Positions 2,876 to 23,693 of a DNA stretch of 25,133 nt are shown piece after piece. Made by a program: the position numbers and the translations under genes. The notes beneath the pieces were generated by a model. The model saw only the letters and a program-made list of their open reading frames with translations. It was not told the DNA's origin and ran no database searches. Source of the DNA: a virus; IMG/VR virus record IMGVR_UViG_3300032246_001696, positions 1 through 25,133 of that record; one strand, 5' to 3'. Each line of letters starts with the position of its first letter. Position 1 is the first letter of the stretch.

Positions 2876-2877
2876 TT

Positions 2878-4367: not shown

Positions 4368-4371
4368 AATT

Positions 4372-5316: not shown

Positions 5317-5317
5317 T

Positions 5318-6271: not shown

Positions 6272-7002
6272 TGAATACAATATATAGAGATTATTTGAAT
6301 GAGCAGGGGTTATTTGATATCCCCTCTCATATCAAAAGTATAAGATTTGATATTGGATTAAGTTGGAATGCACCAAACTCTGGTATGTGGTTAAAAAACG
6401 ATGATACTATTTTTGTTATTGGTGTTGAAGCAAATAAATACGCAGCACAAACTATAATGGAAAACGGATTTATAATTCAGCAAGAAAATTTACAAATACC
6501 ATTCTATACACAAGCTCAAAATTATGTATTATTAAATGCTGCATTAGATAATGTTGATGTTCAAACTAAAAAACCATTCTATCATATGCAAGGTGATGTT
6601 GGTGTTTCATCTTTACTTAAACCAACTGATGCATTAGGATATAGTGTATTGGAAACCGAAGATGTTGATGTGTTATCACTATCTATGTTGATGGATAAAA
6701 TTGATTGGAATAGATTTGACTATATTGAATTAGTAAAAATAGATACTCAGGGTAAGGATTTGGATATTATTAAAAGTGCAAAAAATTACCTAGATAAAAT
6801 TGTATTTTTAAATTGTGAAATTAATACATTTAATCATTATGAAAACAACATAGCACCTAATGTATATCATACATATTTGCAATCGATTGGATTTGAAAAG
6901 GTATTGGATAATTCAATAGTAGATGGTGAAGTAGTTGATGTAACTTACATAAATAAAAAGTACATTCATTTAAAAGATAAAATAAATTATTCAGTATTAT
7001 AA
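6271..7002 (+). CDS. FkbM-family methyltransferase
   Basis: This is a likely SAM-dependent O-methyltransferase of the FkbM (Methyltransf_21) type, a family often found in glycan clusters where it methylates sugar hydroxyls. Visible elements are FDIGLSWNAPNSGMW (26-40; degenerate SAM-binding loop), IGVEAN (50-55; acidic residue for the SAM ribose), NAAL (89-92) and VDVLSLSMLMDKID (132-145) followed by VKIDTQGKDLDIIKSA (155-170), the most diagnostic FkbM block (usually KIDVEGxExxVLxGA). The length of 243 aa is normal. Both ends use one-base TAATG overlaps. Methylation could mask a terminal sugar of the glycan made by this operon; the acceptor is inferred only from context. Confidence 0.75.
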   Translation: MNTIYRDYLNEQGLFDIPSHIKSIRFDIGLSWNAPNSGMWLKNDDTIFVIGVEANKYAAQTIMENGFIIQQENLQIPFYTQAQNYVLLNAALDNVDVQTKKPFYHMQGDVGVSSLLKPTDALGYSVLETEDVDVLSLSMLMDKIDWNRFDYIELVKIDTQGKDLDIIKSAKNYLDKIVFLNCEINTFNHYENNIAPNVYHTYLQSIGFEKVLDNSIVDGEVVDVTYINKKYIHLKDKINYSVL

Positions 7003-7976
7003 TGAAAAAAATATTAATTACAGGTGGTGCCGGATTCATAGGTTCTCATTTAGTTAAGAGATTAGTTAAGCAAGGACATGAAATTACGGTAATAGATAAT
7101 TTGGAAAGAGGTAGAGTTGAGTTTATATCGGATGTTATAACTGATATTAAAATGGTACATGCTGATTTAACAGATTACGATGAATGTAGTAGATACTTCA
7201 TTAAAAAAGATATTGTAATCCATTTAGCATCTAAGGTTGGTGGTATTGGTACTTATTTATCAAAACCATATGATGTGATGAACTCAAATATGAAAATGGA
7301 TAGTAATGTATTGAGAGGTATCATTGAAAATAAAATAGATACATACTTTTATGCATCATCAGCACACATATATCCAAAGGAGTTGCAAACAATAGCAGAC
7401 TCTCCAATGATTAAAGAATCAGATGCTTACCCAGCAAATCCAGAACTAACATATGGTTGGGCAAAGTTGATTGGTGAGAAAGCAATTGAATCAGCAGTAG
7501 TTGAGAATGATTGGATGAAAGTAGCAATAGCAAGATTCATTGGTATCTATGGACCAAATCAGGACTTTAAGTTAGAGAGTGGTTCAGTTATACCTGTATT
7601 CTCACATAGAGCAATCAAATATCCTGAAGTACCATTTAGTGTATGGGGAACTGGAAAGGAAACTCGTTCTTATTGTTACATTGATGATGCATTAGATTGT
7701 ATTGAGAAAATGATTGAAGCAATGGATACAAAGCAAATTGTTGGACCATACAATGTTGGTAAGGGTGAAAGATGTACCATTGAAGAAATCGCAAACACTG
7801 TTGTTGAGATTAGTGGTAAGGATATTAACATTGAATGGGATACAACAAAGAACACAGTCATTTGGGGACAATGGTGTGATTGTAGTTTAGCAAAAGAAGA
7901 ATTAGGTTGGGAAGCACAAACATCTTTAAGAGATGGATTAACAATAGTATATAACGATATAAAACAAAGAGTATGA
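7002..7976 (+). CDS. NAD-dependent epimerase/dehydratase, GDP-mannose 3,5-epimerase-like
   Basis: This is an extended SDR: GGAGFIG (8-14), DNLERG (32-37), Tyr151-xxx-Lys155 (YGWAK), and SVIPVF followed by WGTGKETRSYCYIDDA. The block HLASKVGGIGTYLSKPYDVMNSNMKM and the FYASSAHIYP segment (116-125), followed by KESDAYPANPELTYG (138-152), closely resemble GDP-mannose 3,5-epimerase (GME). In GME the motif reads SSACIYP and the Cys is a catalytic acid/base; here that position is His122. It is therefore GME-like, but the reaction is uncertain: it could epimerise or reduce a related GDP- or UDP-sugar. The length of 324 aa is normal for the superfamily. It joins the preceding gene by TAATG and the next by ATGA. 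Confidence 0.75.
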   Translation: MKKILITGGAGFIGSHLVKRLVKQGHEITVIDNLERGRVEFISDVITDIKMVHADLTDYDECSRYFIKKDIVIHLASKVGGIGTYLSKPYDVMNSNMKMDSNVLRGIIENKIDTYFYASSAHIYPKELQTIADSPMIKESDAYPANPELTYGWAKLIGEKAIESAVVENDWMKVAIARFIGIYGPNQDFKLESGSVIPVFSHRAIKYPEVPFSVWGTGKETRSYCYIDDALDCIEKMIEAMDTKQIVGPYNVGKGERCTIEEIANTVVEISGKDINIEWDTTKNTVIWGQWCDCSLAKEELGWEAQTSLRDGLTIVYNDIKQRV

Positions 7977-8908
7977 AAGTATTAATTACGGGAGGGGCTG
8001 GTTACTTAGGTTCAAATTTAACTAGACATTTATTAGAGGCAGGTTATTCTGTTACGGTATTGGACAATTTAATGTATGACCAAGTAACTTTATTACATTT
8101 ATTTGGTAATCCTAAATTTCAATTTGAATTGGGTGATGTAAGAGATAAAAAACTTTTACAGGAGTTAGTAGGATTAAATGATGTTATTATTCCATTAGCA
8201 GCAATTGTGGGTATGCCCGCATGTAAAGCTAATCCGGAATTAACGGTAGCGGTAAACTATCAGCAAGTGGCTGATATTGTTGAAGTATTAAGAGATGACC
8301 AAAAGTTAATCTTACCTAATACCAATTCACAATATGGTTCATCTGATTCAATCATTACCGAAGAATCACCATTCAATCCATTATCACTTTATGCTAAAAC
8401 TAAATGTGATGCGGAGAACACAATGTTAGCAAACGGAAACGGTGTATCATTAAGATTAGCAACTGTATTTGGTGTATCACCTCGTATGAGAACTGATTTA
8501 TTGGTAAACGATTTTGTATATAAAAGTATAGTAGATGGTTACTTAGTATTGTTCGAAGCACACTTCAAAAGAAACTACATACACGTTCAGGATATAGCTC
8601 GTACATTCCAATTTATTATTGAGAATTATGATAAGTGTAAAGGGCATGCATTCAATGTAGGTTTATCAACTGCTAATTTAAGTAAATTAGAATTGGCAGA
8701 GAAGATTAAATCACATATTCCATCGTTGGTAATTAAGCAAGATGATTTTAAAGAAGATTTTGATAAGAGAAATTATATCGTATCAAATGAGAAATTAGAA
8801 TCATTAGGATGGAAACCAATTTATGATTTGGATTACGGAATCAAACAATTGATATCAGCATACAAAATCGTAATAAACAAAAACAATCAAAATTTTACAA
8901 ACCTTTAA
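7973..8908 (+). CDS. NAD-dependent sugar epimerase/dehydratase (extended SDR)
   Basis: This is another extended SDR nucleotide-sugar enzyme: GGAGYLG (7-13), GDVRD (54-58), LAAIVGMPACKANPELTVAVN (75-95), an NTNSQYG strand (116-122) in place of the usual SSSxVYG, and Tyr140-xxx-Lys144 (YAKTK) as the catalytic pair. RLATVFGVSPRMRTDLLVNDF and RNYIHVQDIA complete the substrate domain. The PACKANPE pattern is common in SDRs of phage and LPS clusters next to heptose- or mannose-type genes. The length is 311 aa. The start overlaps the upstream gene by 4 nt (ATGA). The family is certain; the substrate is not. It may act with the kinase and nucleotidyltransferase that follow. Confidence 0.8.
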   Translation: MKVLITGGAGYLGSNLTRHLLEAGYSVTVLDNLMYDQVTLLHLFGNPKFQFELGDVRDKKLLQELVGLNDVIIPLAAIVGMPACKANPELTVAVNYQQVADIVEVLRDDQKLILPNTNSQYGSSDSIITEESPFNPLSLYAKTKCDAENTMLANGNGVSLRLATVFGVSPRMRTDLLVNDFVYKSIVDGYLVLFEAHFKRNYIHVQDIARTFQFIIENYDKCKGHAFNVGLSTANLSKLELAEKIKSHIPSLVIKQDDFKEDFDKRNYIVSNEKLESLGWKPIYDLDYGIKQLISAYKIVINKNNQNFTNL

Positions 8909-8910
8909 TT

Positions 8911-9315
8911 ATGGCAGACAGAAAGTATTTACCAACATTGAGTGAATTAGTAGATAGATTATCTATCGTACAATTGAAAGAGGTGTTCATTCCAGAACAC
9001 AAAGCAGAATATGCGGATGAGATAAACGCAATTGTACATGATATTCAATTATATTTGGATGATAGTAAAGAACCGATTACAGCAGAAACAATTAGAGCAA
9101 TTGTAGTATTATCACAAATGAACTTACATATTTGGCATAATGAATCAAATTACCGTAAGGGAATTAAAGATGGTAATAACTTAGAATTAACACATGGATT
9201 AAATGGAATCCGTAACGTAGCTAAGAATAAGATTCAGGAAGTTATGGGTGGAAGAAAGGATTATAAAATAGATTGCTTAGCAGCAGATTTTAAAGATTGG
9301 GAAATTAGTTGGTAA
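8911..9315 (+). CDS. Small conserved-looking protein with DRLSIVQLK motif
   Basis: This is a 134-aa soluble protein with no signal peptide or membrane segment. The N-terminus LPTLSELVDRLSIVQLKEVF (7-26) resembles the DRxSIxxLK opening of DUF4254-type proteins found in LPS/heptose clusters, but this resemblance is from memory and weak. Later segments include LNLHIW-type and YRKGIKDGNNLELTHGLNGIRN (81-102), rich in charged and amide residues and probably helical. It lies between an SDR and an HldE-type kinase, so a role in the same sugar pathway, or as a partner subunit, is a reasonable inference. There are only two bases between it and the preceding stop. Confidence 0.55.
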   Translation: MADRKYLPTLSELVDRLSIVQLKEVFIPEHKAEYADEINAIVHDIQLYLDDSKEPITAETIRAIVVLSQMNLHIWHNESNYRKGIKDGNNLELTHGLNGIRNVAKNKIQEVMGGRKDYKIDCLAADFKDWEISW

Positions 9316-9325
9316 AACAAAAATT

Positions 9326-10081
9326 ATGAGAATATTAGTTATAGGAGATAGTTGTAAAGATGTATTCATTTATGGCACAGCTAATAGATTGTGTCCTGAA
9401 GCTCCTGTTCCTGTTTTTATTCCTAAAAGACAAACGGAAACGGGAGGTATGGCAGCTAATGTATATGAGAACATCGAGTCATTAGGTGTTGATGTTGATT
9501 TGGTTACAAATGGAGAACCTATTACAAAAACACGCTATGTTGAGGAAAAAACAAATCATCAAATTATAAGAGTAGATTCGGATGCATCAAAATCTAAAAG
9601 AATAGAGGGTATAGAACACATCCCATTTAATTTATATGATGGTATTATTATATCAGATTATAATAAAGGATTTTTGGAATATGATGATATTGAATTTATT
9701 TGTTCAAAGCATGATACGGTATTCATTGATACTAAAAAGATTATTAATGAAAAGATGTTAGGAGCTAAGTTTATTAAGATAAATGAATATGAGTATGAAA
9801 ACAATATAGCAGCTGGACAATACTTTGACCAATTTTATGATAAGTTAATTGTAACTATGAGTGGGAAGGGTTGTAAATATATGGATAAGGAGTTCAATGT
9901 AGATGAAGTAGAAGTAAGAGATAATAGCGGAGCAGGAGATACTTTCATTTCAGCATTGGCAATTCAATACTGCGAAACAAAAGATATTGAAAGTGCAATA
10001 ATTTATGGTAATGAATGTGCTACTATTGTAGTTCAACACAAAGGAGTAACAAAGGTTGGTAAACATATTAAAATCTATTAA
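9326..10081 (+). CDS. PfkB-family sugar kinase, HldE/RfaE kinase-domain-like
   Basis: This is a ribokinase-fold kinase most like the N-terminal domain of HldE (RfaE), which phosphorylates D-glycero-D-manno-heptose-7-phosphate at C1. The matching pieces are VIGDSCKDVF (5-14), the diagnostic RLCPEAPVPVF (21-31), TGGMAANV (39-46; usually PGGAANV), TKTRYV (67-72), SDYNKG (110-115) and the catalytic DNSGAGDTF (199-207; base Asp205). At 251 aa it is shorter than the ~310-330-aa HldE kinase domain, with trimmed middle strands, and has no attached nucleotidyltransferase domain. The next gene encodes a separate phosphatase-nucleotidyltransferase, so the three activities needed to activate a heptose-like sugar are adjacent. 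The substrate is inferred. Confidence 0.82.
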   Translation: MRILVIGDSCKDVFIYGTANRLCPEAPVPVFIPKRQTETGGMAANVYENIESLGVDVDLVTNGEPITKTRYVEEKTNHQIIRVDSDASKSKRIEGIEHIPFNLYDGIIISDYNKGFLEYDDIEFICSKHDTVFIDTKKIINEKMLGAKFIKINEYEYENNIAAGQYFDQFYDKLIVTMSGKGCKYMDKEFNVDEVEVRDNSGAGDTFISALAIQYCETKDIESAIIYGNECATIVVQHKGVTKVGKHIKIY

Positions 10082-11445
10082 TGACAAAATTAATAATATT
10101 TGATTTGGATGGTGTATTAGTAGAGGCTAAAAAAATCCACTACGATACACTAAACCAAGCCTTAAAAGAAATTGGTGAGGAATATGTAATTTCAGAATCA
10201 GAGCATCTATCAACATACGATGGATTAAAGACAACTCAAAAATTAGAATTACTTACTAAGAGCAAAGGATTACACCCAGAGTTTTATGATAGTATTTGGT
10301 ATAGAAAGCAACATCTAACTATTGAAGCTATTTCACAATTACAACCCGATTCGCAAAAAATTGAGTTATTCAAAGAATTGAGAGATAGGGGATATCAATT
10401 GGCATGTGCTTCAAACTCAATTAGAAGGTCTGTGTTGGTTATGTTAGCTAAGATAGGTATAATTGAGTATATGGACTTAATCATCTCTAATGAGGATGTA
10501 AAGAACTCTAAACCGCATCCTGAAATGTATTGGAAAGCAATGAGTATGATGAGTGTATTGCCGGAAGAAACCCTTATAGTAGAAGATTCACCGCATGGAC
10601 TTTTAGCAGCAAGTAGAAGTAGAGCAAACGTTTTGAGAGTAGATAACCCAAAAGATTTGGTAATATCAAAAATTATTTGTAAATTAGAGGAAACTAAAAA
10701 AGTTATGAGCATACCAAAGTGGCAGGGTGGTAAGATGAATGTTCTTATACCAATGGCCGGAGCCGGTAGTAGATTCCAAGCAGCAGGTTATACGTTTCCA
10801 AAACCACTAATCGATGTGGAAGGTAAACCAATGATTCAGGTTGTTGTTGATAATTTAAACATAGATGCTACATTTATTTATGTAGTACAAAAAGAACATA
10901 GAGAGAAGTATAACTTAGATACTTTATTAAATCTAATCACTCCAAATTGCAAGATTGTGGAAGTTGATGGTTTGACTGAAGGAGCAGCATGTACTACTCT
11001 ATTAGCAAAACAATTCATTAATAATGATGAACCATTAGTTATGGCAAACTCTGACCAATTTGTAGAATGGGATAGTAATGAATTTATGTATAAGATGATT
11101 GAACAAAAAGTTGATGGTGGTATCTTAACATTTACAGCAACACATCCAAAATGGTCATTTGCTAAAGTAGATGAATACGGATATGTGACTGAAGTAGCAG
11201 AGAAAAATCCAATATCGGATATAGCAACGGTAGGGATTTACTATTGGGCTAAAGGTTCTGATTATGTAAAATATGCAGAGCAAATGATTAATAAGAATAT
11301 TAGAACTAACAATGAATTCTATACTTGCCCAACTTTCAATGAAGCAATTGAGGATGGTAAGAAGATTAAAACATTCAATATTGAAAAAATGTGGGGATTG
11401 GGAACTCCTGAGGATTTAAAATATTACTTAGAAAATAAAAAATAA
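10081..11445 (+). CDS. Bifunctional HAD phosphatase / sugar-1-phosphate nucleotidyltransferase fusion
   Basis: Residues 1-~205 are a HAD hydrolase of the beta-phosphoglucomutase/phosphatase type: FDLDGVL (Asp8 nucleophile, Asp10), ACASNS (108-113, Ser111), KPHPE with Lys144, and VEDSPHG (167-173, Asp169). Residues 219-454 are an NTP-transferase domain of the RmlA/GCD1 type: VLIPMAGAGSRF (221-232), FPKPL (239-243) and MANSDQF with metal-binding Asp325. The linker is about 15 residues. The internal Met219 (ATG at 10735) could give the nucleotidyltransferase alone. Following an HldE-type kinase, the fusion would remove one phosphate and activate the sugar-1-phosphate. The HAD half is not the GmhB type and the transferase is not the HldC type, so heptose is a guess. 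It joins its neighbours by one-base TAATG overlaps on both sides. Confidence 0.82.
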   Translation: MTKLIIFDLDGVLVEAKKIHYDTLNQALKEIGEEYVISESEHLSTYDGLKTTQKLELLTKSKGLHPEFYDSIWYRKQHLTIEAISQLQPDSQKIELFKELRDRGYQLACASNSIRRSVLVMLAKIGIIEYMDLIISNEDVKNSKPHPEMYWKAMSMMSVLPEETLIVEDSPHGLLAASRSRANVLRVDNPKDLVISKIICKLEETKKVMSIPKWQGGKMNVLIPMAGAGSRFQAAGYTFPKPLIDVEGKPMIQVVVDNLNIDATFIYVVQKEHREKYNLDTLLNLITPNCKIVEVDGLTEGAACTTLLAKQFINNDEPLVMANSDQFVEWDSNEFMYKMIEQKVDGGILTFTATHPKWSFAKVDEYGYVTEVAEKNPISDIATVGIYYWAKGSDYVKYAEQMINKNIRTNNEFYTCPTFNEAIEDGKKIKTFNIEKMWGLGTPEDLKYYLENKK

Positions 11446-12677
11446 TGGCACATATACAACCAATAACATTTATAATTCCTTGTAGAAATAATATAAAATA
11501 TTTAAAGCAAGCAGTTGATAGTATTCAAAATCATTATGGAGATTATCATCATATAATAATATTAGATGATGCTTCTACTGATAATACTGCTGGATGGGCA
11601 TTTGTGATGGAAGAAAGATATCCACATATTAAATTATATAGAAACGAAAGTGGTGATAGAGTGGGACATACGGTATTATATGATATTGGTATTAAAATGG
11701 CAACTACCCCAATAGTTACAATATTACATTCAGATATGATTGTAACTCAAAACTATGTGGAGAATATGTTAAAGCATTTAAAACCACTTTCAGTAGTATC
11801 GGCAACTCGTATCGAACCACCATTACATCCGCCGGGACCTGAAAAGTATGTTATGGATTTTGGAATGGAGCCAGAAACATTTAATCAAAAAGAATTTGAT
11901 AAATTTGTTTATGAAACCGAATATATAATGGAAGGTAAAACAACTCAAGGTATATTTGCACCTTGGATGTTATATAAAGAAGATTTTGTAACAATTGGTG
12001 GACACGATAAATTATTTGCACCAATGGAGCTAGAAGATTCAGATATTTTCAATAGATTTCATTTACAACAATATCAGTTAATACAAAGTAGAGATGCTTT
12101 TGTATATCATATGACTTGTAGAGGTAGTAGATTCAAAGATGGTATTGAGATTGAAAGAGTAATAGATTTACCCGATGGTACTAAATGGTATAAACCAAAA
12201 GATTCGGAGGAATATAAAAAACTTAGAGAAAATAAATTCAAAGAGTGGTGGAGAAAATGGCATACTGATGTATTGCATGATGACCTGATGATGCCAATTG
12301 TTCCAAATAGATATGATACAACATTTGTAGTTCATAATTGTAATTCTATGTTATTGAGAGCATTAGAACCTTGGTGTGATACATTATATGTAGATTGTGA
12401 ATATCAAACCTATTTAGATAATGAGAAAAAAGAAACAATGTTTAATATCTCTGATAAGATACATAGTATTGGTGATGAAATGAAAGGTGATGTGCAAATT
12501 CTTTTTGATGGCTCTAAACTTACATCACAACATTTTGAAACCTTTATAAAAAATATACCATTTATTATTCAACAAACTGATTCAGTTGGAAGCTTTGAAT
12601 GGGATATATTTCAATTACACATATTCAGTTTAAAAACAAAAGATATGGTCACTCCATTTTTTAAAAATATATTTTAA
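11445..12677 (+). CDS. Glycosyltransferase family 2 with C-terminal extension
   Basis: The N-terminal ~230 residues form a GT-A fold GT2 enzyme: ITFIIPCRNN (7-16), ILDDASTDNT (39-48; Asp41/42 bind the nucleotide), ILHSDM (94-98) as the metal-binding DxD-like motif, and MELEDSD (194-200) with the likely catalytic base, followed by YHMTCRGSRF. Residues ~280-410 form an extra domain (VPNRYDTTFVVHNCNS... TLYVDCEYQTYL) that I do not recognise. It has Rossmann-like alternation and may be an acceptor-binding or second transferase-like domain. Both ends have TAATG overlaps. It probably elongates the glycan built by this operon; the sugar is unknown. Confidence 0.82.
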   Translation: MAHIQPITFIIPCRNNIKYLKQAVDSIQNHYGDYHHIIILDDASTDNTAGWAFVMEERYPHIKLYRNESGDRVGHTVLYDIGIKMATTPIVTILHSDMIVTQNYVENMLKHLKPLSVVSATRIEPPLHPPGPEKYVMDFGMEPETFNQKEFDKFVYETEYIMEGKTTQGIFAPWMLYKEDFVTIGGHDKLFAPMELEDSDIFNRFHLQQYQLIQSRDAFVYHMTCRGSRFKDGIEIERVIDLPDGTKWYKPKDSEEYKKLRENKFKEWWRKWHTDVLHDDLMMPIVPNRYDTTFVVHNCNSMLLRALEPWCDTLYVDCEYQTYLDNEKKETMFNISDKIHSIGDEMKGDVQILFDGSKLTSQHFETFIKNIPFIIQQTDSVGSFEWDIFQLHIFSLKTKDMVTPFFKNIF

Positions 12678-13570
12678 TGAAAAAGAAAACACTAATTTGC
12701 ATTCATGTAATGCCATCGGAAATAGAAATGTTTGAACGCTTGATGCAACAAATGAAAAGAGCATTAATGTATTTGGATGAAAATGATGATGTTACATTAA
12801 AAGTAACATTAAACTTAAATCCACAACTTACGGATTGGCAAGATAGCGAATTGAAAAATGGTCATTTCATAAGCAGATTTGCAGTATTATTTAATGGTAT
12901 TAAAAATATAAATGAAATTATATTAGATACTTCTTGTTGGGGAACTACTCAGCAAAAAAGAGAAAGTTATAAATTAGATTATGACCAATTTATATTTTGT
13001 GATACTGATATTTTGTTTCATGAGCATATGTTAAAATATCAATTAAATGTTGCATCTCAATTAGATGGTACATATATAGTATCACCTTCTTTGGCAAAGT
13101 GGTGGGATGGTAGTTGGGATGAGTTATGTCATAGTGAATATTTAGATAAACCATATGGATATTCAATTGATAACGCAGAAATTATGTATGGAGCTCTCAA
13201 TCAAGAAATAAAAGAAATAAATGCAAGACAATTGCATGAAATTAAATTTGGATGTGGAATGCATACTTTATATTCTAAATCATTTTGGGAATTGGTTGGT
13301 ATTCCTGAATCATTTGGAGGATATGGACCGGAAGATACATATGGAATGTCAGCAGCCAAACTTGCTATCAAACTGGGATATGATATAAAGCAATTTGTTA
13401 TGGATGGTGTATATATTGCAGAAGATTATAAAAATAGATTACCATCTTTTATTGATAAAATAAAACCAATAGATAAGAAAAAGGAGTTTTATGATAGGGC
13501 AAGTGCGTTAGGACAAGAAGAAGTGATAAAATTTGGTAAAGAATTAATAGAAAAACAATCTAATCCATAA
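12677..13570 (+). CDS. GT-A glycosyltransferase (DxD type, galactosyltransferase-like C-terminus)
   Basis: The motif FIFCDTDILF (105-114) provides a clear DxD (Asp109, Asp111) in the setting typical of GT-A enzymes that handle UDP-sugars. FGCGMHTLYSKSFWELVGIP (191-210), followed by GGYGPEDTYG with Glu219-Asp220, resembles the Glyco_transf_7C/galactosyltransferase C-terminal block, where the ED pair lies in the active site. The length of 297 aa suits a single domain. It is the last gene of the tight operon: it starts in TAATG with the previous gene and is followed by a 33-base gap that carries a candidate promoter. No signal peptide or membrane anchor is seen, so it is cytoplasmic. Confidence 0.75.
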   Translation: MKKKTLICIHVMPSEIEMFERLMQQMKRALMYLDENDDVTLKVTLNLNPQLTDWQDSELKNGHFISRFAVLFNGIKNINEIILDTSCWGTTQQKRESYKLDYDQFIFCDTDILFHEHMLKYQLNVASQLDGTYIVSPSLAKWWDGSWDELCHSEYLDKPYGYSIDNAEIMYGALNQEIKEINARQLHEIKFGCGMHTLYSKSFWELVGIPESFGGYGPEDTYGMSAAKLAIKLGYDIKQFVMDGVYIAEDYKNRLPSFIDKIKPIDKKKEFYDRASALGQEEVIKFGKELIEKQSNP

Positions 13571-15030: not shown

Positions 15031-17568
15031 ATGGCAACTAAAAAGATAACCGAATTACCTTTAATTAATACTATATCTGGTTCATACAGTGTAGTACCAA
15101 TTGTAATAGGTGATACAGTGGGTACTGGAAATACCGACCAAATTAGTATAGAAAACTTTAGTAAATTTGTAACTGCATATAGTGCACATACAGGTTCTGC
15201 TGGTAATATATTCACAGGTCCTCAAACTATTAATAATAATGTTACTATTAATGGTAGACTTACTGTTACTGAAGTATATGCACAATATGAAACTGCAAGT
15301 GTAATATATTCTTCTGGTGGAAACGTTTTTGGTGACCAAAACGCAGACTTACATCAATTTACAGGTTCAATAAACTTAAATGGTTCTTTAATATATAATG
15401 GTGTTCTTGTTACAAATGTTGATGCAAATACAATAAATAAATTACAGCAAACAACCGCATCACTTCAACAAGCAACTCAATCATTACAATCATTTACATC
15501 ATCTCAATTAGCAGTTAATTTAGGTAACTCAATTTATACATCTTCAGTTGATGCACATATTGTTGGTATTAGTACATACACATCATCTGTAAGAGATACA
15601 TTGGCTAGAGTACATCAGACAACACAATCATTACAAGTAGCTACTGCATCATTAAATCAATTTACTGCATCTCAAGATAGTAGAAACTTTATAATATCTC
15701 AATTTACATCTTCAACAAATGTACATATAGTGGGTATTAGTACATTTACATCATCTCAATATGATACGATGGCAAGAGTGTACCAAACAACTTCATCGTT
15801 ACAATCAACAACCGCATCTTTAAATCAATTTACGGCATCTCAAGATAGTAGAAACTTAACACTTTCAATTGTAACTGGTTCATTGATTGGAATCACAAAC
15901 GGATTGATGGCATTTACTGCATCATTAGATAATACATACGCAACTGATGCACAATTGTATCAATTATATCAATCAACGGCATCTATACAATCATTTACTG
16001 CATCTCAAGATAGTAGAAACTTTACACTTTCAACTGTAACCGGTTCTTTAATTGGAATCACAAATGGTTTAATGGCATTTACTGCGGCTTTAGATAATAC
16101 ATATGCAACTGATGCACAACTTTATCAATTATACCAAGCTACTCGTTCATTGGAATTACTTAGTGGTTCAATGATAGGTGTAACAAATGGTTTAATGGCT
16201 TATACAGCATCAAACGATAGTTGGAAAGATGGCGTAAGAGGTGAGATTAGTAAGATTGAAGCTTGGACAGCATCATTGGATTCTACATACGCAACTGATG
16301 CACAACTTTATCAATTATACGCTGAAACTGCATCAATAAAGGCTGAGATAGCTGGTATTGAAGCATATACGGCATCATTAAAATCAGTAGCATTAGTTAG
16401 TGGTTCATTGATAGCTTCATCTTCATATAGTATTGTGGCCGATGGTGCAAGAACAATAGATGTATTTTCAGCTGGTATTGATTTTGAATCATATCCATTA
16501 TTTTCAAATGTAATTGCAGCTAGTGGAGTTGCGGTAAGTGGTGATACTAATTTAAGATATAATTCATCAACAAACGTATTAACTGTACCAACTATATCAG
16601 CAACTACCTATTTGGGTGGTGTTGTTAGTGGTAGTGCGCAATTAACTCAATTAAATACATTCACTGGTTCAATACAAAATGAAGTAAGTGGAATTGAAGT
16701 ATATACCGCATCTTTAAAAGCAGCAAGTATAGTTTCATCTTCACAGCAAATACAAAATTATAGTTTATTTGCTACAACTGGTTCAAATACTTTTGTAGGA
16801 AACCAAACAATAAATGGTACAACTAAAATCACTGGTTCATTAATAGTAAGTGGTGCATTAACAACAAATATAATAAGTGGTGGATTGGATGTATTTGGTG
16901 GTATCACTGGTTCACTAAAAGGAAATGTAGCTGGTACTGCAACTTATTCTAATCTTCTTAATGTAGGAAACTCATCAACAAATCAAAACTACGCAATACC
17001 ATTTACAACAGCAAATAGTAATGGGTATATGACTCTATATACCGATTTAACTGGAGGACCCTTATATAATCCATCTACTAATAAAATGGAATTGACCGGT
17101 TCATTAAATGTGACTGGTTCAATTACAATTAATAGCGGTTCAATTACGATGCCGGATAGACCTGCATTTAGAGTGATTGGGGCTGGTGGAGCTAAACAAG
17201 CACCAACGGTATTATCTGGTAGTTATTTAACTGTGGATTACGCTCAATCTAATGCATGGGATAATACAACTGGTACATTTACTGCACCAATAGCAGGATT
17301 ATATCAAGTTAATATTGTTGCAAGATGTTTGAACAACGCAAGTCCAGCTGCACAAGTTATTGTATATAAAAACAATACATCATTAACACCTTCTCCTGAT
17401 GGTACTGCACTAATAATGTTAGAATGGGCAGCAAATACAACAGCAAACCATATTGGAGGTAGTACTATTTGTAAATTAGCAGTAGGTGATACTCTTAAAG
17501 CAATAGTTGCTAGTGGTACTGCTTCATTTGATGCAAACGATAATTTTTCAGTAGCATATATAGGATAA
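15031..17568 (+). CDS. Tail-fibre/structural protein with repeats and C1q/TNF-like head
   Basis: The N-terminus (MATKKITELPLINTISG ... VVPIVIGDT ... ISIENFSKF, ~1-50) is a pattern common in phage fibre and virion proteins. Residues ~130-460 are low-complexity Ser/Thr/Gln-rich repeats, including two 56-residue copies starting HIVGIST (nt 15556 and 15724) and 55-residue copies of TGSLIGITNGLMAFTA...TYATDAQLYQLY; these should form a long trimeric, coiled or beta shaft. A GSLNVTGSITI segment near 690-710 resembles beta-helical fibre repeats. Residues ~711-845 form a C1q/TNF-like jelly roll: PAFRVIG, GTFTAPIAGLYQVN, VIVYKNN and IGGSTICKLAVGDTLKA, the expected receptor-binding trimer head. It is preceded by the longest gap and followed by the protease after three bases. 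Confidence 0.82.
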   Translation: MATKKITELPLINTISGSYSVVPIVIGDTVGTGNTDQISIENFSKFVTAYSAHTGSAGNIFTGPQTINNNVTINGRLTVTEVYAQYETASVIYSSGGNVFGDQNADLHQFTGSINLNGSLIYNGVLVTNVDANTINKLQQTTASLQQATQSLQSFTSSQLAVNLGNSIYTSSVDAHIVGISTYTSSVRDTLARVHQTTQSLQVATASLNQFTASQDSRNFIISQFTSSTNVHIVGISTFTSSQYDTMARVYQTTSSLQSTTASLNQFTASQDSRNLTLSIVTGSLIGITNGLMAFTASLDNTYATDAQLYQLYQSTASIQSFTASQDSRNFTLSTVTGSLIGITNGLMAFTAALDNTYATDAQLYQLYQATRSLELLSGSMIGVTNGLMAYTASNDSWKDGVRGEISKIEAWTASLDSTYATDAQLYQLYAETASIKAEIAGIEAYTASLKSVALVSGSLIASSSYSIVADGARTIDVFSAGIDFESYPLFSNVIAASGVAVSGDTNLRYNSSTNVLTVPTISATTYLGGVVSGSAQLTQLNTFTGSIQNEVSGIEVYTASLKAASIVSSSQQIQNYSLFATTGSNTFVGNQTINGTTKITGSLIVSGALTTNIISGGLDVFGGITGSLKGNVAGTATYSNLLNVGNSSTNQNYAIPFTTANSNGYMTLYTDLTGGPLYNPSTNKMELTGSLNVTGSITINSGSITMPDRPAFRVIGAGGAKQAPTVLSGSYLTVDYAQSNAWDNTTGTFTAPIAGLYQVNIVARCLNNASPAAQVIVYKNNTSLTPSPDGTALIMLEWAANTTANHIGGSTICKLAVGDTLKAIVASGTASFDANDNFSVAYIG
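15553..16330 (+). repeat. In-frame tandem repeats of fibre shaft
   Basis: Two 168-nt units (56 aa each, from about 15553 and 15721) share HIVGIST, TSS, the ARV-QTT segment and NQFTASQDSRN. They grade into units with a 165-nt period (from about 15862 and 16027) sharing TGSLIGITNGLMAFTA and NTYATDAQLYQLY, with a partial third from about 16162 and a last ATDAQLYQLY near 16291. DNA identity is high but imperfect, suggesting duplication followed by drift. Confidence 0.8.
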
Positions 17569-17571
17569 AAT

Positions 17572-19494
17572 ATGAAACAATATAATGTTGCGTTAAAAGC
17601 CGATATAGATTACGATGGGTTTTGGAATGATATGGAATCCGAAACTGATGGCTTACTTTATATTCCAAATCGTAGGGTAGAATTTACAAACGAAAGACCG
17701 GCATCACTTCGTCAATGTTGGTATTTGCTGACAGATGAAGAAGCAGAATTACTAAGAGGAGATAATAGAGTTTATTGTGTAGAGATACCGCCTGAGTTTA
17801 GAACGGATATCATTATAGCACCCAGAACAATTCAAACTGGGGATTTTACAAAAACATCATCTTCCAGTGGAGCATATGTAAACTGGGGATTGATTAGAGC
17901 ATCCAATTCAACAAATGTTTATGGTACTGGAACAACAACAGCTTTAAGTTATAATTACACATTAGATGGAACGGGTGTTGATGTTGTGATTCAAGATAGT
18001 GGATTGCAAGTTGACCATCCTGAATTTCAAGATGCAAATGGTAATAGTAGAGTTCAACAAATAGATTGGGCAGCTGCAAGTGGATTGGGATTTATTCAAA
18101 ACGTAAATCATTATAGAGATTATAATGGACATGGTACACACGTAGCAGGTATTACTGCTGGTAAAACATATGGTTGGGCAAAGAATGCTAGGGTGTATTC
18201 TGTTAAAGTTAATGGATTAGAAGGTAGTGGTGATAGTGGTACTGGTATATCAACCACATACGCATTTGATTGTATAAAAGCATGGCACACATCTAAAGCA
18301 GGAAGTAGACCAACTGTTGTTAATATGAGTTGGGGCTATTTAGTTTTTTATAATAGTGTAACATCTGTAAATTATAGAGGAACATCATATACTGATTCAT
18401 CAACAACTGGAAACGCAACTTACAGAGTAAATACATATGGTATAAAAAATGTAAGTGGAGCATCATACGGATATAATTACATTTGTAATACTAGAGTTTC
18501 TTCGGTTGATGTTGATGTAGAGGAATTAATAGCAGCTGGTGTGGTTGTTTGTATAGCAGCAGGTAATCGTGATTTTAAAGTAGATTTAACAACTGGCACT
18601 GATTATAACAACTATATGGTTACTGACCAAGGGACTCAGTATTATCATAGAGGTTCATCTCCGCATAGTGAAAATGCAATTATTGTTGGAGCTTTAGATA
18701 GTAGTACATATGATGCTACATATGACCAAAAAGCAACATATAGCGAAACAGGACCTGGTGTTGATATATGGGCTCCTGGAACTTATATAATGAGTTCTAC
18801 ATCAACTACAAATGGATTTAGTTCTCAACCATATAATTTAAATTCATCGTATAGACAATTAAATATTAGTGGTACATCAATGGCATCACCACAAGTAGCA
18901 GGAGTATCGGCATTAGTATTACAAGCAAACCCATCATATACGCCGGCACAGGTTAAGGCAGCTCTTTTAGCATCATCAACATCTACTATATATACAACGG
19001 GATTGACTAGTGATTGGAGTAGTACAAGAAGTTTACAAGGTGCAGCTCAAAAAGTATTATATGCAAATTATGTATTAGCAACTACTACTACAACAACTAC
19101 AACCACAGCGGCGCCACCTCCGCCACCTCCGCCAACTACTACAACTACTACCACTACAACAACCACAACTACAACAACCACAACTACAACTACGGCTGCA
19201 CCACCCCCACCTCCGCCACCACCAACAACAACTACTACCACAACTACTACTACAACAACTACATTAGCACCAACTATTGTTACTTGTACACAATATTTAT
19301 GTACGGCAAATAGGGGTGGTTATATATTTTGGACAGAGTGTGATTCAAAGCATCAAGCTGGAGCTATGATAAATTCAGGAAAAAGAAAATACATATCATC
19401 TTTAACATATCCAACTCAAGAAAAAGGAGCAGGTATTACTATTAAAGCTATATCCAGTACAGATACTATTGAATATATCCAACCAACCAAATAA
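17572..19494 (+). CDS. Subtilisin-like serine protease (S8) with Thr/Pro-rich mucin-like tail
   Basis: Residues ~1-110 look like a prodomain or adaptor. Residues ~125-500 form a subtilase with the full triad: Asp142 in VVIQDSGLQVDHPEF, His187 in NGHGTHVAG, Ser436 in GTSMASPQVAG, plus the oxyanion Asn332 in AAGN. There is no signal peptide, which fits cytoplasmic assembly into a virion rather than secretion. Residues ~504-565 are T9-AA-P7-T20-AA-P8-T13 linkers, followed by a ~75-residue domain with several Cys (VTCTQYLCTANRGGYIFWTEC). The protease lies between the fibre and the poly-Pro adhesin and shares its linker type with the latter. It could cleave host surface proteins or mature the fibres. 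The active-site assignment is strong; location and target are inferred. Confidence 0.9.
   Translation: MKQYNVALKADIDYDGFWNDMESETDGLLYIPNRRVEFTNERPASLRQCWYLLTDEEAELLRGDNRVYCVEIPPEFRTDIIIAPRTIQTGDFTKTSSSSGAYVNWGLIRASNSTNVYGTGTTTALSYNYTLDGTGVDVVIQDSGLQVDHPEFQDANGNSRVQQIDWAAASGLGFIQNVNHYRDYNGHGTHVAGITAGKTYGWAKNARVYSVKVNGLEGSGDSGTGISTTYAFDCIKAWHTSKAGSRPTVVNMSWGYLVFYNSVTSVNYRGTSYTDSSTTGNATYRVNTYGIKNVSGASYGYNYICNTRVSSVDVDVEELIAAGVVVCIAAGNRDFKVDLTTGTDYNNYMVTDQGTQYYHRGSSPHSENAIIVGALDSSTYDATYDQKATYSETGPGVDIWAPGTYIMSSTSTTNGFSSQPYNLNSSYRQLNISGTSMASPQVAGVSALVLQANPSYTPAQVKAALLASSTSTIYTTGLTSDWSSTRSLQGAAQKVLYANYVLATTTTTTTTTAAPPPPPPPTTTTTTTTTTTTTTTTTTTTAAPPPPPPPPTTTTTTTTTTTTTLAPTIVTCTQYLCTANRGGYIFWTECDSKHQAGAMINSGKRKYISSLTYPTQEKGAGITIKAISSTDTIEYIQPTK
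19081..19263 (+). repeat. Poly-Thr/poly-Pro coding low-complexity tract (protease tail)
   Basis: The tract encodes Thr9 (19081-19107), Ala2, Pro7 (19114-19134), Thr20 (19135-19194), Ala2, Pro8 (19201-19224) and Thr13 (19225-19263). The Thr codons are shuffled among ACT, ACA and ACC, with ACG nearly absent, so there is no pure trinucleotide run. This points to selection on the amino acids, or against slippage, rather than simple DNA expansion. Confidence 0.9.
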
Positions 19495-19506: not shown

Positions 19507-19541
19507 ATACTTATTACTATAACCTAATATTATAAGTTATG
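19507..19541 (+). promoter_or_regulatory. Shared upstream element ATACTTATTA ... TTATAAGTTATG
   Basis: The gap before the adhesin holds ATACTTATTA (19507-19516) and TTATAAGTTATG (19530-19541), the latter ending in the start codon. Both strings recur before the APS-kinase-like gene (24918-24927 and 24933-24944), with a shorter spacing. A shorter AAGTTATG also precedes the start at 22959, and GTTATG precedes those at 22415 and 23696. It may combine a promoter with a translation-initiation signal that uses no Shine-Dalgarno sequence. Confidence 0.35.
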
Positions 19542-22400
19542 GCTCAAGGAAATGTATGTTGGACTGAACCGAATGGAACAATAGGACCATGCCAATATAT
19601 TTCGGTTAAAATTGGTGGAGTAAGTATTTTAGCAAGAGAAGGCTCATTAACATATCCTGTGGGCTCTTATATTGTACAAGGACCATTATATTCATCGGTT
19701 AATGGTATAAACTCATATTATTATGATGTATATCCAGAAGCACCACCAACAACCACAACTACTACTACTACAACAACTACATCAACAACTACACATGCGC
19801 CAGTTTGGTATCGATTGACAAATTGTAATGATAATAGCACTGCATATTCTGTACAATATCCATTTGGAAAATTTGTAGTAGGTGAGAGAGTTTTAAATGG
19901 AGCATCAACAATTTCATATAATGTAGCTGAAGTACTTTCATCAAATCCCGGTGGAACTTTAATATCAATTTTTAAAAGTGGATATTCAGCTTGCATAAGT
20001 ACTACAACTACAACAACGCAAGCACTTTCATTTACATTAACTCCAGGTTGTGCTGGTATTGGAACTCCGGGAACAGGTACTCTTTCAGCAAGTGGATTTA
20101 GTGGTGGTACTGGTACATACTCACACTTAAGGATGGGTACTACATTAGCAAATGCCCAAGCAGCAACTCCAAGAGCAATAGGTTCATATTCAACTATTAC
20201 TTGGGATGTATTAACTAACGGAACTTATTATGTTATATTAAATGATTCAAGCGGAAATAGTACATATACAACGGCAGTAGTATCTTGTACGGCAATATCA
20301 TTTTTAGCAACACCAAGTTGTGCATCACCGGCTATACCGGGAAGTGGTAGGATTACAATTGACCATTTTGTTGGAGGTAATACGGATTATAGATATGTAA
20401 AAATATCATCAGTATCATATGCAGATGCACATACACAAACTCCAACAGCAATACCTTCACCATATAACACATATACATTTACTGGATTATCAAATGCAGC
20501 TTGGTTTATAATATTAATTGATAGTGCTGGGCAAGAAAGTGGAAACTATGGAGTGCATAAAGCAACTACAAGTTGTACCGATGTTGGATTTTCAACTACA
20601 TATTTATCTAATCAACCGGGATGTTATCTTACGATTAATAATTTTATTGGTGGTAATGGAACTTATAATAAAGTTAGATTATCTACTACATCATTAGCAG
20701 ATGCAGCAGCTCAAACAGCAACATCATTTAGTGGTACATCATATACATATGGACCTATATATTTCAACGCAACATATTACATACAATTAGAGGATAGTGC
20801 AGGACGTAAGAGTACATCAACGGTAACAACTGATTGGAATACAAAAGCAGTAACTGGATGTACATTAACTCCTGAAAGTGGAACGGTAGTTACGGGTTGT
20901 GTAAACAATGGTGGACATACTGGTACAATTGATGTAACATCACCATCGGGCGGTACGGGTGTTGGATATTACTTTACTTTAAATGGTAGTGGACATTACA
21001 CTCCTGGCGTTGGAGCAACTGGATTAGATGATGGAAGTTATGCGGTAGTATTATATGATAGTTATGATGGGGGTACTAGTTTAGGTACTGCTACTATAAG
21101 TTGTTATGTAGCACCAAGCGGTACATCAACACAAACTTGTTTGGATACTTCAGGAACAAATGGTAAAATAGATGTAAATTCAGCAGCCGGTGGTACTGGT
21201 ACTGGATATTACTTTAAATTAAATGGAGGGGCAACTAACTATACTCCGGGAACTGGGGCAACGGGATTGGCAGATGGAACATATAGTGTAACTCTATATG
21301 ATAGTATTGGAAATAGTACTGCATTAACAAGTCAAACATTAGCTTGTTATGTTGCGCCACCTCCACCACCGCCTCCGCCGCCACCACCTCCGCCGCCTAC
21401 GCCGCCGCCTCCGCCACCACCTCCGCCGCCTACGCCGCCTCCTCCGCCACCACCTCCGCCGCCTACGCCGCCGCCACCACCGCCGGGAGGGCCAGCAACA
21501 TTTTATGTGTATATGAGTGAAACTAGCCCTACCGCAGCATGTGATGGTGGAGATACTGCATATGGAGCATATCATTTATTTACAGTTGATGGTAATAGTG
21601 ATAGTCATTGTTCATCAACAAGCTTTACATGTACTGAATTAGGTTCTTTAGATTTTGGCGGAACTTTTTGGATTGCATATGGAGCTTATTATAGAGAGGT
21701 TATGAAAACTGGCGGTTCAGCAAGCAATACATTTACTGCTACCGCAGCTTGTGATGTTTGTGGTGGTACACCTCCACCACCTCCACCACCTCCGCCGCCT
21801 CCACCGCCTCCACCTCCTCCATCATATGATTATTATTTGGCGGATGAATATTCTTGTGCAGCTGGATGTACTTTAACAAATACAAATGTATTGGTAGCAT
21901 TTACAGCAGGTTCATCTATTAATTGGTATAACAAACATTATATATCATTGGGTGGTTCTAATGTGGGATATAACTATGTAATTCAAAATAATGGTTCAGC
22001 TGGGGCAGCTTTAATATTATATGGAACACAATACACAAGTTGTACAGCCGCATGTACTGCTGAGGGAGAGCCTGTTGGACCACCTCCACCTCCACCTCCA
22101 CCTCCACCACCGCCACCACCTCCTACGCCAAGTAGTTATACATCAATTGGAAAGTATACTGTTAAAACTGCTTTGAGTTGTGGTTCTTCCTCAGGTAGTT
22201 TAGTATATATATTTTTAAATGATACTGATTTAGCAACATACAATGGCAATGGTGGTTTTTTAGAAGTTGGAATGCAATTCTACGCAAATTCTTCTGGCGA
22301 TGCTTGGTTTAATGCTGGAAATAAAGTATATGATATGAATGCGCTAACAATATTCAATTTATCAGGCGGAGCTATTACAAGTGTATATTCCTATTGTTAA
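19539..22400 (+). CDS. Giant modular adhesin with Ig/SprB-like repeats and poly-Thr/poly-Pro linkers
   Basis: This 953-aa protein has no signal peptide. In order: an N-terminal module with two Cys (1-67), a poly-Thr linker (~70-85), a second small module, and a short Thr6 linker (~154-160). Then come three ~90-95-residue repeats (nt ~20026-20850), each with Cys, F-GG-GTY, an LADA-AQTPT-like loop and NATYYI-L-DSAG. Two ~75-residue repeats follow (nt ~20856-21350), ending GLxDGxYxVxLYDS and resembling SprB repeats of Bacteroidota gliding adhesins. The C-terminus holds three Cys-containing modules separated by Pro14-T-Pro10-T-Pro10-T-Pro6, Pro17 and Pro15 linkers. It is likely a virion surface protein binding host cells. 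A 2OG oxygenase and a glycosyltransferase follow, so the linkers may be modified. Confidence 0.78.
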   Translation: MAQGNVCWTEPNGTIGPCQYISVKIGGVSILAREGSLTYPVGSYIVQGPLYSSVNGINSYYYDVYPEAPPTTTTTTTTTTTSTTTHAPVWYRLTNCNDNSTAYSVQYPFGKFVVGERVLNGASTISYNVAEVLSSNPGGTLISIFKSGYSACISTTTTTTQALSFTLTPGCAGIGTPGTGTLSASGFSGGTGTYSHLRMGTTLANAQAATPRAIGSYSTITWDVLTNGTYYVILNDSSGNSTYTTAVVSCTAISFLATPSCASPAIPGSGRITIDHFVGGNTDYRYVKISSVSYADAHTQTPTAIPSPYNTYTFTGLSNAAWFIILIDSAGQESGNYGVHKATTSCTDVGFSTTYLSNQPGCYLTINNFIGGNGTYNKVRLSTTSLADAAAQTATSFSGTSYTYGPIYFNATYYIQLEDSAGRKSTSTVTTDWNTKAVTGCTLTPESGTVVTGCVNNGGHTGTIDVTSPSGGTGVGYYFTLNGSGHYTPGVGATGLDDGSYAVVLYDSYDGGTSLGTATISCYVAPSGTSTQTCLDTSGTNGKIDVNSAAGGTGTGYYFKLNGGATNYTPGTGATGLADGTYSVTLYDSIGNSTALTSQTLACYVAPPPPPPPPPPPPPPTPPPPPPPPPPTPPPPPPPPPPTPPPPPPGGPATFYVYMSETSPTAACDGGDTAYGAYHLFTVDGNSDSHCSSTSFTCTELGSLDFGGTFWIAYGAYYREVMKTGGSASNTFTATAACDVCGGTPPPPPPPPPPPPPPPPPSYDYYLADEYSCAAGCTLTNTNVLVAFTAGSSINWYNKHYISLGGSNVGYNYVIQNNGSAGAALILYGTQYTSCTAACTAEGEPVGPPPPPPPPPPPPPPPTPSSYTSIGKYTVKTALSCGSSSGSLVYIFLNDTDLATYNGNGGFLEVGMQFYANSSGDAWFNAGNKVYDMNALTIFNLSGGAITSVYSYC
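20026..20850 (+). repeat. Three diverged Ig-like repeats (about 90-95 aa) in adhesin
   Basis: Copies run roughly 20026-20292, 20293-20580 and 20581-20850. Shared features are an early Cys, a G-x-L/I-x-I-x-x-F-x-GG-x-x-x-Y strand, a loop with ADA and QT-T, and a closing Y-I-x-L-x-DSAG strand. They are diverged at the DNA level, so the duplication is old. Confidence 0.65.
20856..21350 (+). repeat. Two SprB-like repeats in adhesin
   Basis: Two copies (about 20856-21105 and 21130-21350) share C-x(5-8)-G-x-I-D-V, GGTGxGYYFxLNG, YTPGxGATGLxDGxYxVxLYDS and a final SC/AC. The pattern GGTGxYxxxxNG...GLxxGxYxVxVxD is the SprB-repeat hallmark known from Flavobacteriia cell-surface adhesins. The assignment is by eye. 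Confidence 0.6.
21357..21485 (+). repeat. GC-rich poly-Pro coding tract with near-identical 33-nt tandem units
   Basis: The tract encodes Pro14-Thr, then two Pro10-Thr units (21402-21434 and 21435-21467) that differ at a single base, then Pro6. The last 8 codons of all three Thr-ending units are identical. The tract is made of CCG/CCA/CCT codons with ACG for Thr, giving a GC-rich island in an AT-rich genome. It is a likely site of unit gain and loss. Confidence 0.9.
21771..21821 (+). repeat. Pro17 coding linker in adhesin
   Basis: Seventeen consecutive Pro codons, mostly CCT/CCA/CCG in mixed order, separate two Cys-containing C-terminal modules. No exact tandem unit as long as that of the 21357 tract is present. 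Confidence 0.9.
22080..22124 (+). repeat. Pro15 coding linker in adhesin
   Basis: Fifteen consecutive Pro codons, starting as alternating CCA/CCT and followed by an ACG Thr codon, join the last two modules. The alternating hexanucleotide start could slip during replication. Confidence 0.9.
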
Positions 22401-22414
22401 AAATAAAAAATGTT

Positions 22415-22999
22415 ATGAATACCTTTATATCAATTAATGAAAATTTTTTAAGTGATGATGATTTTGAAAAGTATTTAAATTTTTCAAAAGAAACAAATCT
22501 ATGGGGAAATAGAGTACCAAATAATGTATGGTCTGGTAGGGTTGTTTTTGCTAATAGTGTTAATGAATTATCAGAATTAAATAATTTATTTTTAAACAAA
22601 GTTAGAGAAACTATAAAATCTAAATTTGAATTAGAAGCCGAAATATACCCAGATTATTTGGGAGTAGTTAAATGGGAAAATGATGATATGCAACATGCAC
22701 ATGCTGATGGTGAAATTGAAAATGGTACGCATCCATTTTTTTGGAGAAATTTTGGATGTGTTTTATATTTAAATGATAATTATAGTGGTGGGGAAATATA
22801 TTTTCCAAATCAAAATATAGAAATAAAACCAAAACCAAATACATTAGTTTTCTTTCCAGGTAATTTAGAATTTTTACACGGAGTGAAACCTATGATAAAT
22901 GATGTGAGATATACATTAACATCATTTTGGACATATGATAAAAAATATTCAATAAGTTATGATAATAGTCCCGGAAAATACAATAATAGCAATTCCTGA
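22415..22999 (+). CDS. Prolyl-4-hydroxylase-like 2-oxoglutarate/Fe(II) oxygenase
   Basis: I chose the ATG at 22415 (194 aa), which has the GTTATG context; an upstream in-frame TTG at 22394 would overlap the adhesin stop and adds nothing. The double-stranded beta-helix carries the Fe ligands His96-x-Asp98 (in QHAHADGE) and distal His155 (in EFLHGVKP), with Arg165 (VRYTLTSFW) in the usual 2-oxoglutarate-binding place. CVLYLNDNYSGGEIYFP (115-131) and PNTLVFFPG (141-149) are typical of the P4H/2OG-FeII_Oxy_3 family. Such enzymes hydroxylate proline or other residues. Lying directly after an adhesin with poly-Pro linkers, it plausibly hydroxylates them. Other 2OG substrates (nucleobases, sugars) remain possible. 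Confidence 0.85.
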   Translation: MNTFISINENFLSDDDFEKYLNFSKETNLWGNRVPNNVWSGRVVFANSVNELSELNNLFLNKVRETIKSKFELEAEIYPDYLGVVKWENDDMQHAHADGEIENGTHPFFWRNFGCVLYLNDNYSGGEIYFPNQNIEIKPKPNTLVFFPGNLEFLHGVKPMINDVRYTLTSFWTYDKKYSISYDNSPGKYNNSNS

Positions 23000-23693
23000 A
23001 AATCCTAATTTTAAGGATAGTATTAGTTTAATTGTAGAACCATTTAAAGGAAACCTAAAAAGAGACTGGTTTGTAGACCATGCTTACTTTTGCTTACCAC
23101 TAACAATAGGAAATCAATATGGGTTTGGTATAAAATCATTAAAAACATTTAGTGTAATTTGGGAAGGTGGTGATGGTGCACAAAATGTTAAGGTAGAAAT
23201 ATTAGATGATTCAGAACGACCAATGGCACAAACAATATCATCTCACTTTGGTATGGGTACGTTTACTATACAAAATCGATTTACATTTAGAACTCCACCG
23301 GGTGTTAATCTAATGACAATAAATCCACCAAATCATTGGATAGATGGTATTCAGCATATGACTGGTGTTGTTGAAACAGATAATCTTCGTAGAGATTTTA
23401 CATTCAATTTAAGAATAACTCGTAAAAACGAAAAAATAATAATTAATAAAGGAGATTATATCGGATGTGTTTTACCAATACCTAGATACTTTGTTGATGG
23501 GTTTAGTTTAAAAAGTTTTGAAGATATACTAACACCAGAACAAATTTTAGAAGAGCAGCAAGCTATGGCTGATTTTGGTGATGAGAGAAGAAATTTAGAT
23601 AGGAGTAAACCACACGGTAATGGTAGAAGATATTTTAATGGAGAGGATGTATATGGATGTCCATTTTCAGACCATCAAAAGAAAATAAAATAG
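22959..23693 (+). CDS. DUF6065-like protein of unknown function
   Basis: The ATG at 22959 is preceded by ATAAGTT, the same context as other starts here, and overlaps the oxygenase gene by 41 nt; no other Met occurs until about residue 95. The block HAYFCLPLTIGNQYGFGIKS (41-60) followed by FSVIWEGG matches the pattern I associate with DUF6065 proteins, which often sit near oxygenases and glycan genes. The mid-region holds FGMGTFTIQNRFTFRTPPG and a WIDG motif, and the C-terminus is charged, ending with RRYFNGEDVYGCPFSDHQ. The length of 244 aa is normal for that family. It is predicted beta-rich and soluble. Its position between a hydroxylase and a glycosyltransferase suggests a role in the same modification. 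Confidence 0.6.
   Translation: MIIVPENTIIAIPENPNFKDSISLIVEPFKGNLKRDWFVDHAYFCLPLTIGNQYGFGIKSLKTFSVIWEGGDGAQNVKVEILDDSERPMAQTISSHFGMGTFTIQNRFTFRTPPGVNLMTINPPNHWIDGIQHMTGVVETDNLRRDFTFNLRITRKNEKIIINKGDYIGCVLPIPRYFVDGFSLKSFEDILTPEQILEEQQAMADFGDERRNLDRSKPHGNGRRYFNGEDVYGCPFSDHQKKIK

Follow-up and report, generated by a model that had tools for sequence, protein, structure and literature searches.

SprB-like repeats in a beads-on-a-string protein of an uncultured, probably Bacteroidota-infecting phage

The IMG/VR virus record IMGVR_UViG_3300032246_001696, all 25,133 bases of which (32% G+C) were analysed here as one window, carries an open reading frame (ORF) for a 953-aa protein built like beads on a string. 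Two N-terminal beads bounded by poly-Thr are followed by five repeats, R1 to R5, and then by three beads separated by poly-Pro linkers (Table 1). No convincing family was found for this bead protein in Pfam, PHROGs or NCBIfam scans, and no C-terminal sorting domain of the type IX secretion system (T9SS) was detected in it by Pfam or NCBIfam at E ≤ 10.

Table 1 Features of the bead protein gene and its upstream neighbours in the window. SprB profile scores are given as uncorrected/bias-corrected bits, followed by the number of 2000 composition-matched shuffles that reach each score; L001 is a sister contig and L166 a kin phage locus
Feature	Positions	Strand	Remarks	Basis
Fibre-like protein	15031..17568	+	845 aa	12–14% of its length matches cyanophage structural proteins, 6 records
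Subtilase	17572..19494	+	Peptidase_S8 (9e-36); Thr/Pro-rich tail	Relatives in 53 phage records (33 from Synechococcus phages)
Bead protein carrying the repeats	19539..22400	+	953 aa	ORF list, translation
Poly-Thr linker	19743..19781	+	41% G+C	Comparison with L001
Repeat R1	20025..20288	+	88 aa	Repeat alignment; match to L166 bead; SprB profile 15.8/2.8 bits (2/120 shuffles)
Repeat R2	20289..20576	+	96 aa	Repeat alignment; phage clade in second tree; SprB profile 4.0/3.4 bits (107/87 shuffles)
Repeat R3	20577..20861	+	95 aa; weakest of the five against SprB	Repeat alignment; SprB profile 2.3/1.9 bits (1134/216 shuffles)
Repeat R4	20862..21104	+	81 aa; SprB-type	SprB profile, best domain, 27.6/17.6 bits (0/0 shuffles)
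Repeat R5	21105..21347	+	81 aa; SprB-type	SprB profile, best domain, 34.7/23.6 bits (0/0 shuffles)
Poly-Pro linker	21357..21485	+	81% G+C	L001 DNA match stops inside, at 21428
Bead replaced in L001	21486..21767	+	19/84 aligned residues identical	Comparison with L001
Poly-Pro linker	21768..21821	+	70% G+C	L001 DNA match restarts inside, at 21778
Bead	21822..22079	+	84/86 residues identical	Comparison with L001
Poly-Pro linker	22080..22130	+	69% G+C	Comparison with L001
C-terminal bead	22131..22397	+	82/89 residues identical	Comparison with L001

An earlier note on this stretch had described two repeats of ~75 aa resembling the SprB repeat of gliding-bacteria adhesins. The pair, R4 and R5, is real and carries the motif described, but the count of two was incomplete, as three more divergent repeats precede it. 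Identity to R5 is 53% for R4, 31% for R1 and 26% for both R2 and R3, and the five repeats have in common C12, GG29-30, DS66-67 and a closing Cys (R5 numbering).

Because the Pfam model of SprB (PF13573, cut-off 28 bits) covers 37 positions only, a full-repeat SprB profile was built. Its reference consisted of the best 80 of 481 relatives in genome_contigs, fetched with a typed consensus, of which 78 were assigned by record title to Bacteroidota and two to Pseudomonadota bins; these 80 loci yielded 931 repeats, 762 of them after redundancy removal. When cut out and scored against this profile, R4 and R5 exceeded all of their shuffles both with and without bias correction (Table 1), and each of the other five beads tested was equalled by at least 206 shuffles. 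A background of 6891 windows of 85 aa, taken from the record itself, L001, kin contigs, a cyanophage, Flavobacterium phage FCL-2 and a pelagiphage, gave a top score of 23.7 bits and a best score of 9.3 bits outside the bead-protein family, the thirty top-scoring windows all belonging to bead proteins of this phage group. Moreover, hhalign aligned R4/R5 with 250 bacterial SprB repeats at probability 93 and score 37.2, against a best probability of 46.8 and a best score of 24.3 in 60 column shuffles; beads of the kin loci L166 (probability 90) and L177 (55.5) also exceeded their own shuffles. A relation to SprB is thus supported, at the level of sequence, for R4 and R5 only. Both resemble SprB repeats in length (~75–85 aa), in a Cys near the start and in the motifs GxIxV, GGTGxxY and GL..G(T/S)YxVxLxD, and differ from them in carrying YDS and a later closing Cys instead of DANGC. 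The protein as a whole departs from SprB adhesins in its phage setting, its poly-Pro linkers and the missing T9SS domain.

The AlphaFold2 (AF2) model of the R4R5 pair, computed from 77 alignment rows of which 75 were SprB repeat pairs, is an all-beta tandem (pLDDT 87.6, pTM 0.69). Its best PDB match by Foldseek (E 9.5e-4) was the grappling hook protein A (GhpA) of Aureispira (PDB 9flu, 9g8b, 9flw), a Bacteroidota adhesin that differs from the bead protein in being a 5898-residue chain. Among viral structural matches, three of the best four were named ‘SprB repeat’ and came from uncultured Caudovirales phages (BFVD A0A6J5LD72, A0A6J5LDA4 and A0A6J5MUM3, ranks 1, 2 and 4), although their identity to R4R5 in the structural alignment was 14–23%.

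The explanation that we favour, with a probability of about two in three, is that the ORF encodes a modular virion adhesin from the tail-fibre region of a contractile-tailed Bacteroidota phage, in which SprB-type repeats serve as a stalk or as weak glycan-binding beads. Several results weigh against it. PF13573 matched neither the ORF, nor the 165-aa segment containing R4 and R5, nor any of the five single repeats at E ≤ 10, and a six-frame search of the whole record gave no match either; the closeness to SprB put forward in the earlier note therefore holds for R4 and R5 by the custom profile, hhalign and matched controls, but not by Pfam's own model. Taken alone, R1–R3 were non-significant after bias correction in the comparison with the full SprB profile, and hhalign placed them together at probability 2.7, within their shuffles (maximum 4.1). 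Scored as a whole protein and bias-corrected, the ORF fell to −18.4 bits, its best domain keeping 15.1 bits (i-E 0.0043); the first whole-protein search did not list it at E ≤ 10, whereas L001 was listed at 1e-4 (15.6 bits, E 0.0029, in the run with the background windows). This loss to bias correction weighs against easy annotation and not against the result for the cut-out repeats. The AF2 model of R4R5 is not independent evidence because of the 75 SprB rows in its alignment, and a model of R1–R5 computed without SprB rows, with L001 as the sole second row, was of low confidence (pLDDT 41). By VIA-align Z (up to 8.0), GhpA was tied with human CD45, fn3 and Ig chains. A SprB-rich profile, A3, found GhpA first in the PDB and after it phage decoration, tail, neck whisker and Hoc proteins, among others; a profile of R4/R5 only listed a single match (E 1.3), and a phmmer search of the PDB with R4–R5 gave none. 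In the second of the two trees described below, finally, the L177 bead lies outside the phage clade, among other viral rows.

The failure of PF13573, the non-significance of R1–R3 and the finding of virion proteins by A3 would all fit R1–R5 being ordinary phage immunoglobulin (Ig)-like domains of the Big, PKD or decoration type, with Gly/Thr-rich loops that converged on SprB. Since A3 reaches phage Ig-like proteins as well, SprB and phage Ig-like repeats grade into one another; the decoration, Hoc and neck-whisker proteins, which share Ig-like repeats in the virion, were nevertheless unmatched by the R4/R5-only profile. Profiles of PKD_4, HYR, fn3 and Big_2, made from 13 to 29 matches each in seven Bacteroidota genomes, gave at most 0.8 bits for R4 and 6.1 bits for R5, the latter with PKD_4 and equalled by 3 of 500 shuffles. 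SprB profiles reduced to a comparable depth (25 repeats, four random draws) gave 11.6–15.4 bits for R4 and 15.8–20.2 bits for R5, with 0 of 500 shuffles reaching the score in each case. The loci used were 26 of 30 for PKD_4, 24 of 30 for HYR, 29 of 30 for fn3 and 13 of 22 for Big_2, those excluded, mostly partial or near-duplicate matches, having been dropped before scoring; the contest covered these four families. None of the four profiles matched any of R1–R5, and no such Pfam family appeared at E ≤ 10. With R4/R5 matching the depth-matched SprB profiles and not those of the other families, and with shuffles and phage background windows scoring far below them, convergence of ordinary Ig-like domains is in our judgement unlikely.

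Repeats of this kind are not unprecedented in viruses. A SprB consensus search of viral records gave 77 loci, and the Pfam SprB cut-off was passed in 40 of 44 viral records tested, whereas the kin records examined in this way, those of L001, L166, L177 and L172, gave no match at all. Together with the Caudovirales proteins named ‘SprB repeat’, these passes indicate that such repeats are already on record, at least as database annotations, and the array in the window is a diverged member of it. Ten proteins neighbouring viral SprB genes were compared with PHROGs; two matched tail families (both in L094), one matched a family of unknown function and seven matched none, so that for most viral SprB records it is IMG/VR that vouches for their being phages. 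Among the literature matches listed, mostly at abstract level and with little coverage of subscription journals, none described SprB repeats in a phage protein. Since the Pfam model can lose sight of SprB-type repeats that have diverged inside a phage lineage, counts of them in phages may be too low. At L103:7059-10202 lies the gene for a more typical viral relative of the bead protein; it has linkers of Ser/Thr/Pro, cadherin domains and, above the Pfam cut-off, five stretches of SprB.

Two trees were computed on 78–79 columns, their rows taken from 342 viral and 1165 bacterial repeats, with bootstrap unsettled and most other branching unresolved; eight rows were included as top matches and the remainder drawn at random per locus. 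In the first (110 repeats, 22 viral rows), R1, R4, R5 and the L166 bead formed one clade (100/87), and in the second (114 repeats, 68 viral rows) the clade comprised R1, R2, R4, R5 and the L166 bead (96/91), R2 being present in this tree only and R3 in neither. The row nearest to the phage clade in the second tree was a repeat from a Bacteroidetes bin (89/80, not firm). R1 also matches the first post-linker bead of L166 directly (blastp with neither composition correction nor filter, 32% over 102 aa, E 1e-9). The SprB profile matches that bead in L163, L166, L167, L168 and L170, which are near-identical copies, at 17.6–17.8 bits, and R1 is tied to the SprB family through this intermediate.

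It had been suggested that the phage borrowed a host surface module, and descent from such a module is plausible, since Bacteroidota supplied 78 of the 80 bacterial loci in the reference. The same preponderance, with a probable Bacteroidota host, might favour a recent capture of a SprB repeat from the present host, used to imitate its gliding adhesin. However, the repeats cluster with a bead from a kin phage and separately from the bacterial and other viral repeats that were sampled, so that no donor can be named and neither a recent or traceable capture nor mimicry is demonstrated. The best single matches of R4 (uncorrected) were viral L103 at 35.1 bits, Flavobacterium at 32.8 and Chryseobacterium at 32.1, and those of R5 were L103 at 32.6, Flavobacterium at 32.4 and a Bacteroidetes bin at 31.7; the best bacterial matches, at 32–33 bits, are thus tied with the viral one. 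A search of genome_contigs with R4–R5, which reaches close relatives only, gave 46 pattern matches and no relative. We therefore regard recent capture as very improbable. The repeat region gave nothing at E ≤ 1 by tblastn in the phage collection with low-complexity filtering on, and viral_contigs, searched with two parts of the array, returned only the sister L001.

The host is probably a member of the Bacteroidota, as the earlier note had supposed, and this is borne out indirectly by the scarcity of Shine-Dalgarno-like words (GGAG, GAGG, AGGA). Of 22 plus-strand ATG starts selected from 30 ORFs in the window, two were preceded by such a word, a rate like that at other ATGs (64/668), and in six kin loci the count was 2 of 53 starts. 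Among long ORFs, the words were found at 3 of 48 in the L166 record, 4 of 48 in the L177 record and 1 of 30 in Flavobacterium phage FCL-2. By contrast, cyanophage S-CREM1 had them at 6 of 12 and pelagiphage HTVC008M, which is similarly rich in A+T, at 13 of 34. Shine-Dalgarno-like sites are naturally missing in Bacteroidetes (PMC6847099). That such sites are rare in this phage and its relatives, and likewise in FCL-2, favours a Bacteroidota host, short of proof, and gives an inexpensive pointer to the host of these uncultured phages.

The gene at 22959-23693 defines a group of 34 related viral loci, including L001; many are short fragments, and full gene order was mapped in L001 and L166 only. 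In 15 of the 34, the 22959-type gene has an ORF with Pro/Thr linkers upstream, and of nine of these inspected besides L001, eight encode bead proteins and one (L182) does not. In L001, with ~88–91% DNA identity to the window, the fibre-like end is followed directly by the bead gene, without the subtilase, and then by a 2OG oxygenase-like gene and the 22959-type gene. The order in L166 is a long ORF, the bead gene, a 2OG-like gene (by reading), one further gene and the 22959-type gene. In the window and L001 the bead gene thus comes after a fibre-like gene, and in L166 after a long ORF; the L166 record encodes a baseplate wedge elsewhere. Of nine proteins scanned, four had family hits, which give the L166 record baseplate wedge, endolysin, primase and SbcCD-like families; the one among the nine that came from the L177 record gave no match. 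These contexts bear on whether a bacterial surface-protein gene could have reached the contig by mis-assembly or misbinning, an idea to which the left half of the window lends some colour, consisting largely of sugar-modification genes (by reading) that are possibly bacterial. The repetition of the gene order in a second contig, except for the subtilase, the phage families in the L166 record and the restriction of subtilase matches at E ≤ 1e-3 to phage records (in the phage collection searched) make such an artefact scarcely credible. The record of kin locus L177 also holds, at L204:8787-13907, a gene for a 1707-aa protein with no Pfam family above cut-off.

In the modular virion adhesin that we favour, small beta-sandwich domains would be mounted on stiff poly-Pro and poly-Thr spacers, with R1–R5, as SprB-type Ig-like repeats that would include R1–R3 in the same fold, together forming a rod. 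The remaining beads would be exchangeable and contact the host surface or host sugars, and the SprB-type repeats might act as a stalk or as weak glycan-binding units. Such a role has been ascribed to Ig-like domains in other phage surface proteins. The repeats probably go back to an ancient transfer between Bacteroidota adhesins and phages, with the host module as the plausible source, followed by divergence within the phage lineage. To our knowledge, little is known of the receptors of such phages; should the beads bind host sugars, a set of naturally exchanged adhesin tips would be at hand in this locus.

One replacement of a bead was observed directly. The third linker-bounded bead has been replaced in L001 between flanks that are 92% and 98% identical, and both breakpoints of the DNA match fall within poly-Pro tracts (Table 1). 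The N-terminal bead before the poly-Thr run shows 49% identity to L001. In the only other comparison made, L159 and L177 have one bead in common (90%) and N-terminal beads that are 34% alike. The poly-Pro linkers reach 69–81% G+C and the poly-Thr linker 41%. We tentatively raise the possibility that the poly-Pro and poly-Thr tracts act as recombination joints, similarity of linker DNA allowing whole beads to be swapped like cassettes, which would retarget the tip and keep the SprB-type stalk.

The C-terminus of the upstream fibre-like protein (16900-17565) gave a sub-threshold C1q-like match (E 0.006). The closest phage relative of the subtilase, in S-CREM1 (37% identity), neighbours a gene whose annotation reads baseplate wedge and tail pin. 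On the other side, a 2OG-Fe(II) oxygenase-like gene (22394-22999, PHROG matches) adjoins the adhesin gene, as in L001 and, by reading, in L166. Finally, a long run of genes at 503-13570 reads as sugar-related, with an epimerase, NAD-dependent sugar enzymes and glycosyltransferase-like and nucleotidyltransferase-like genes, and perhaps serves glycan decoration of the virion or of the host surface.

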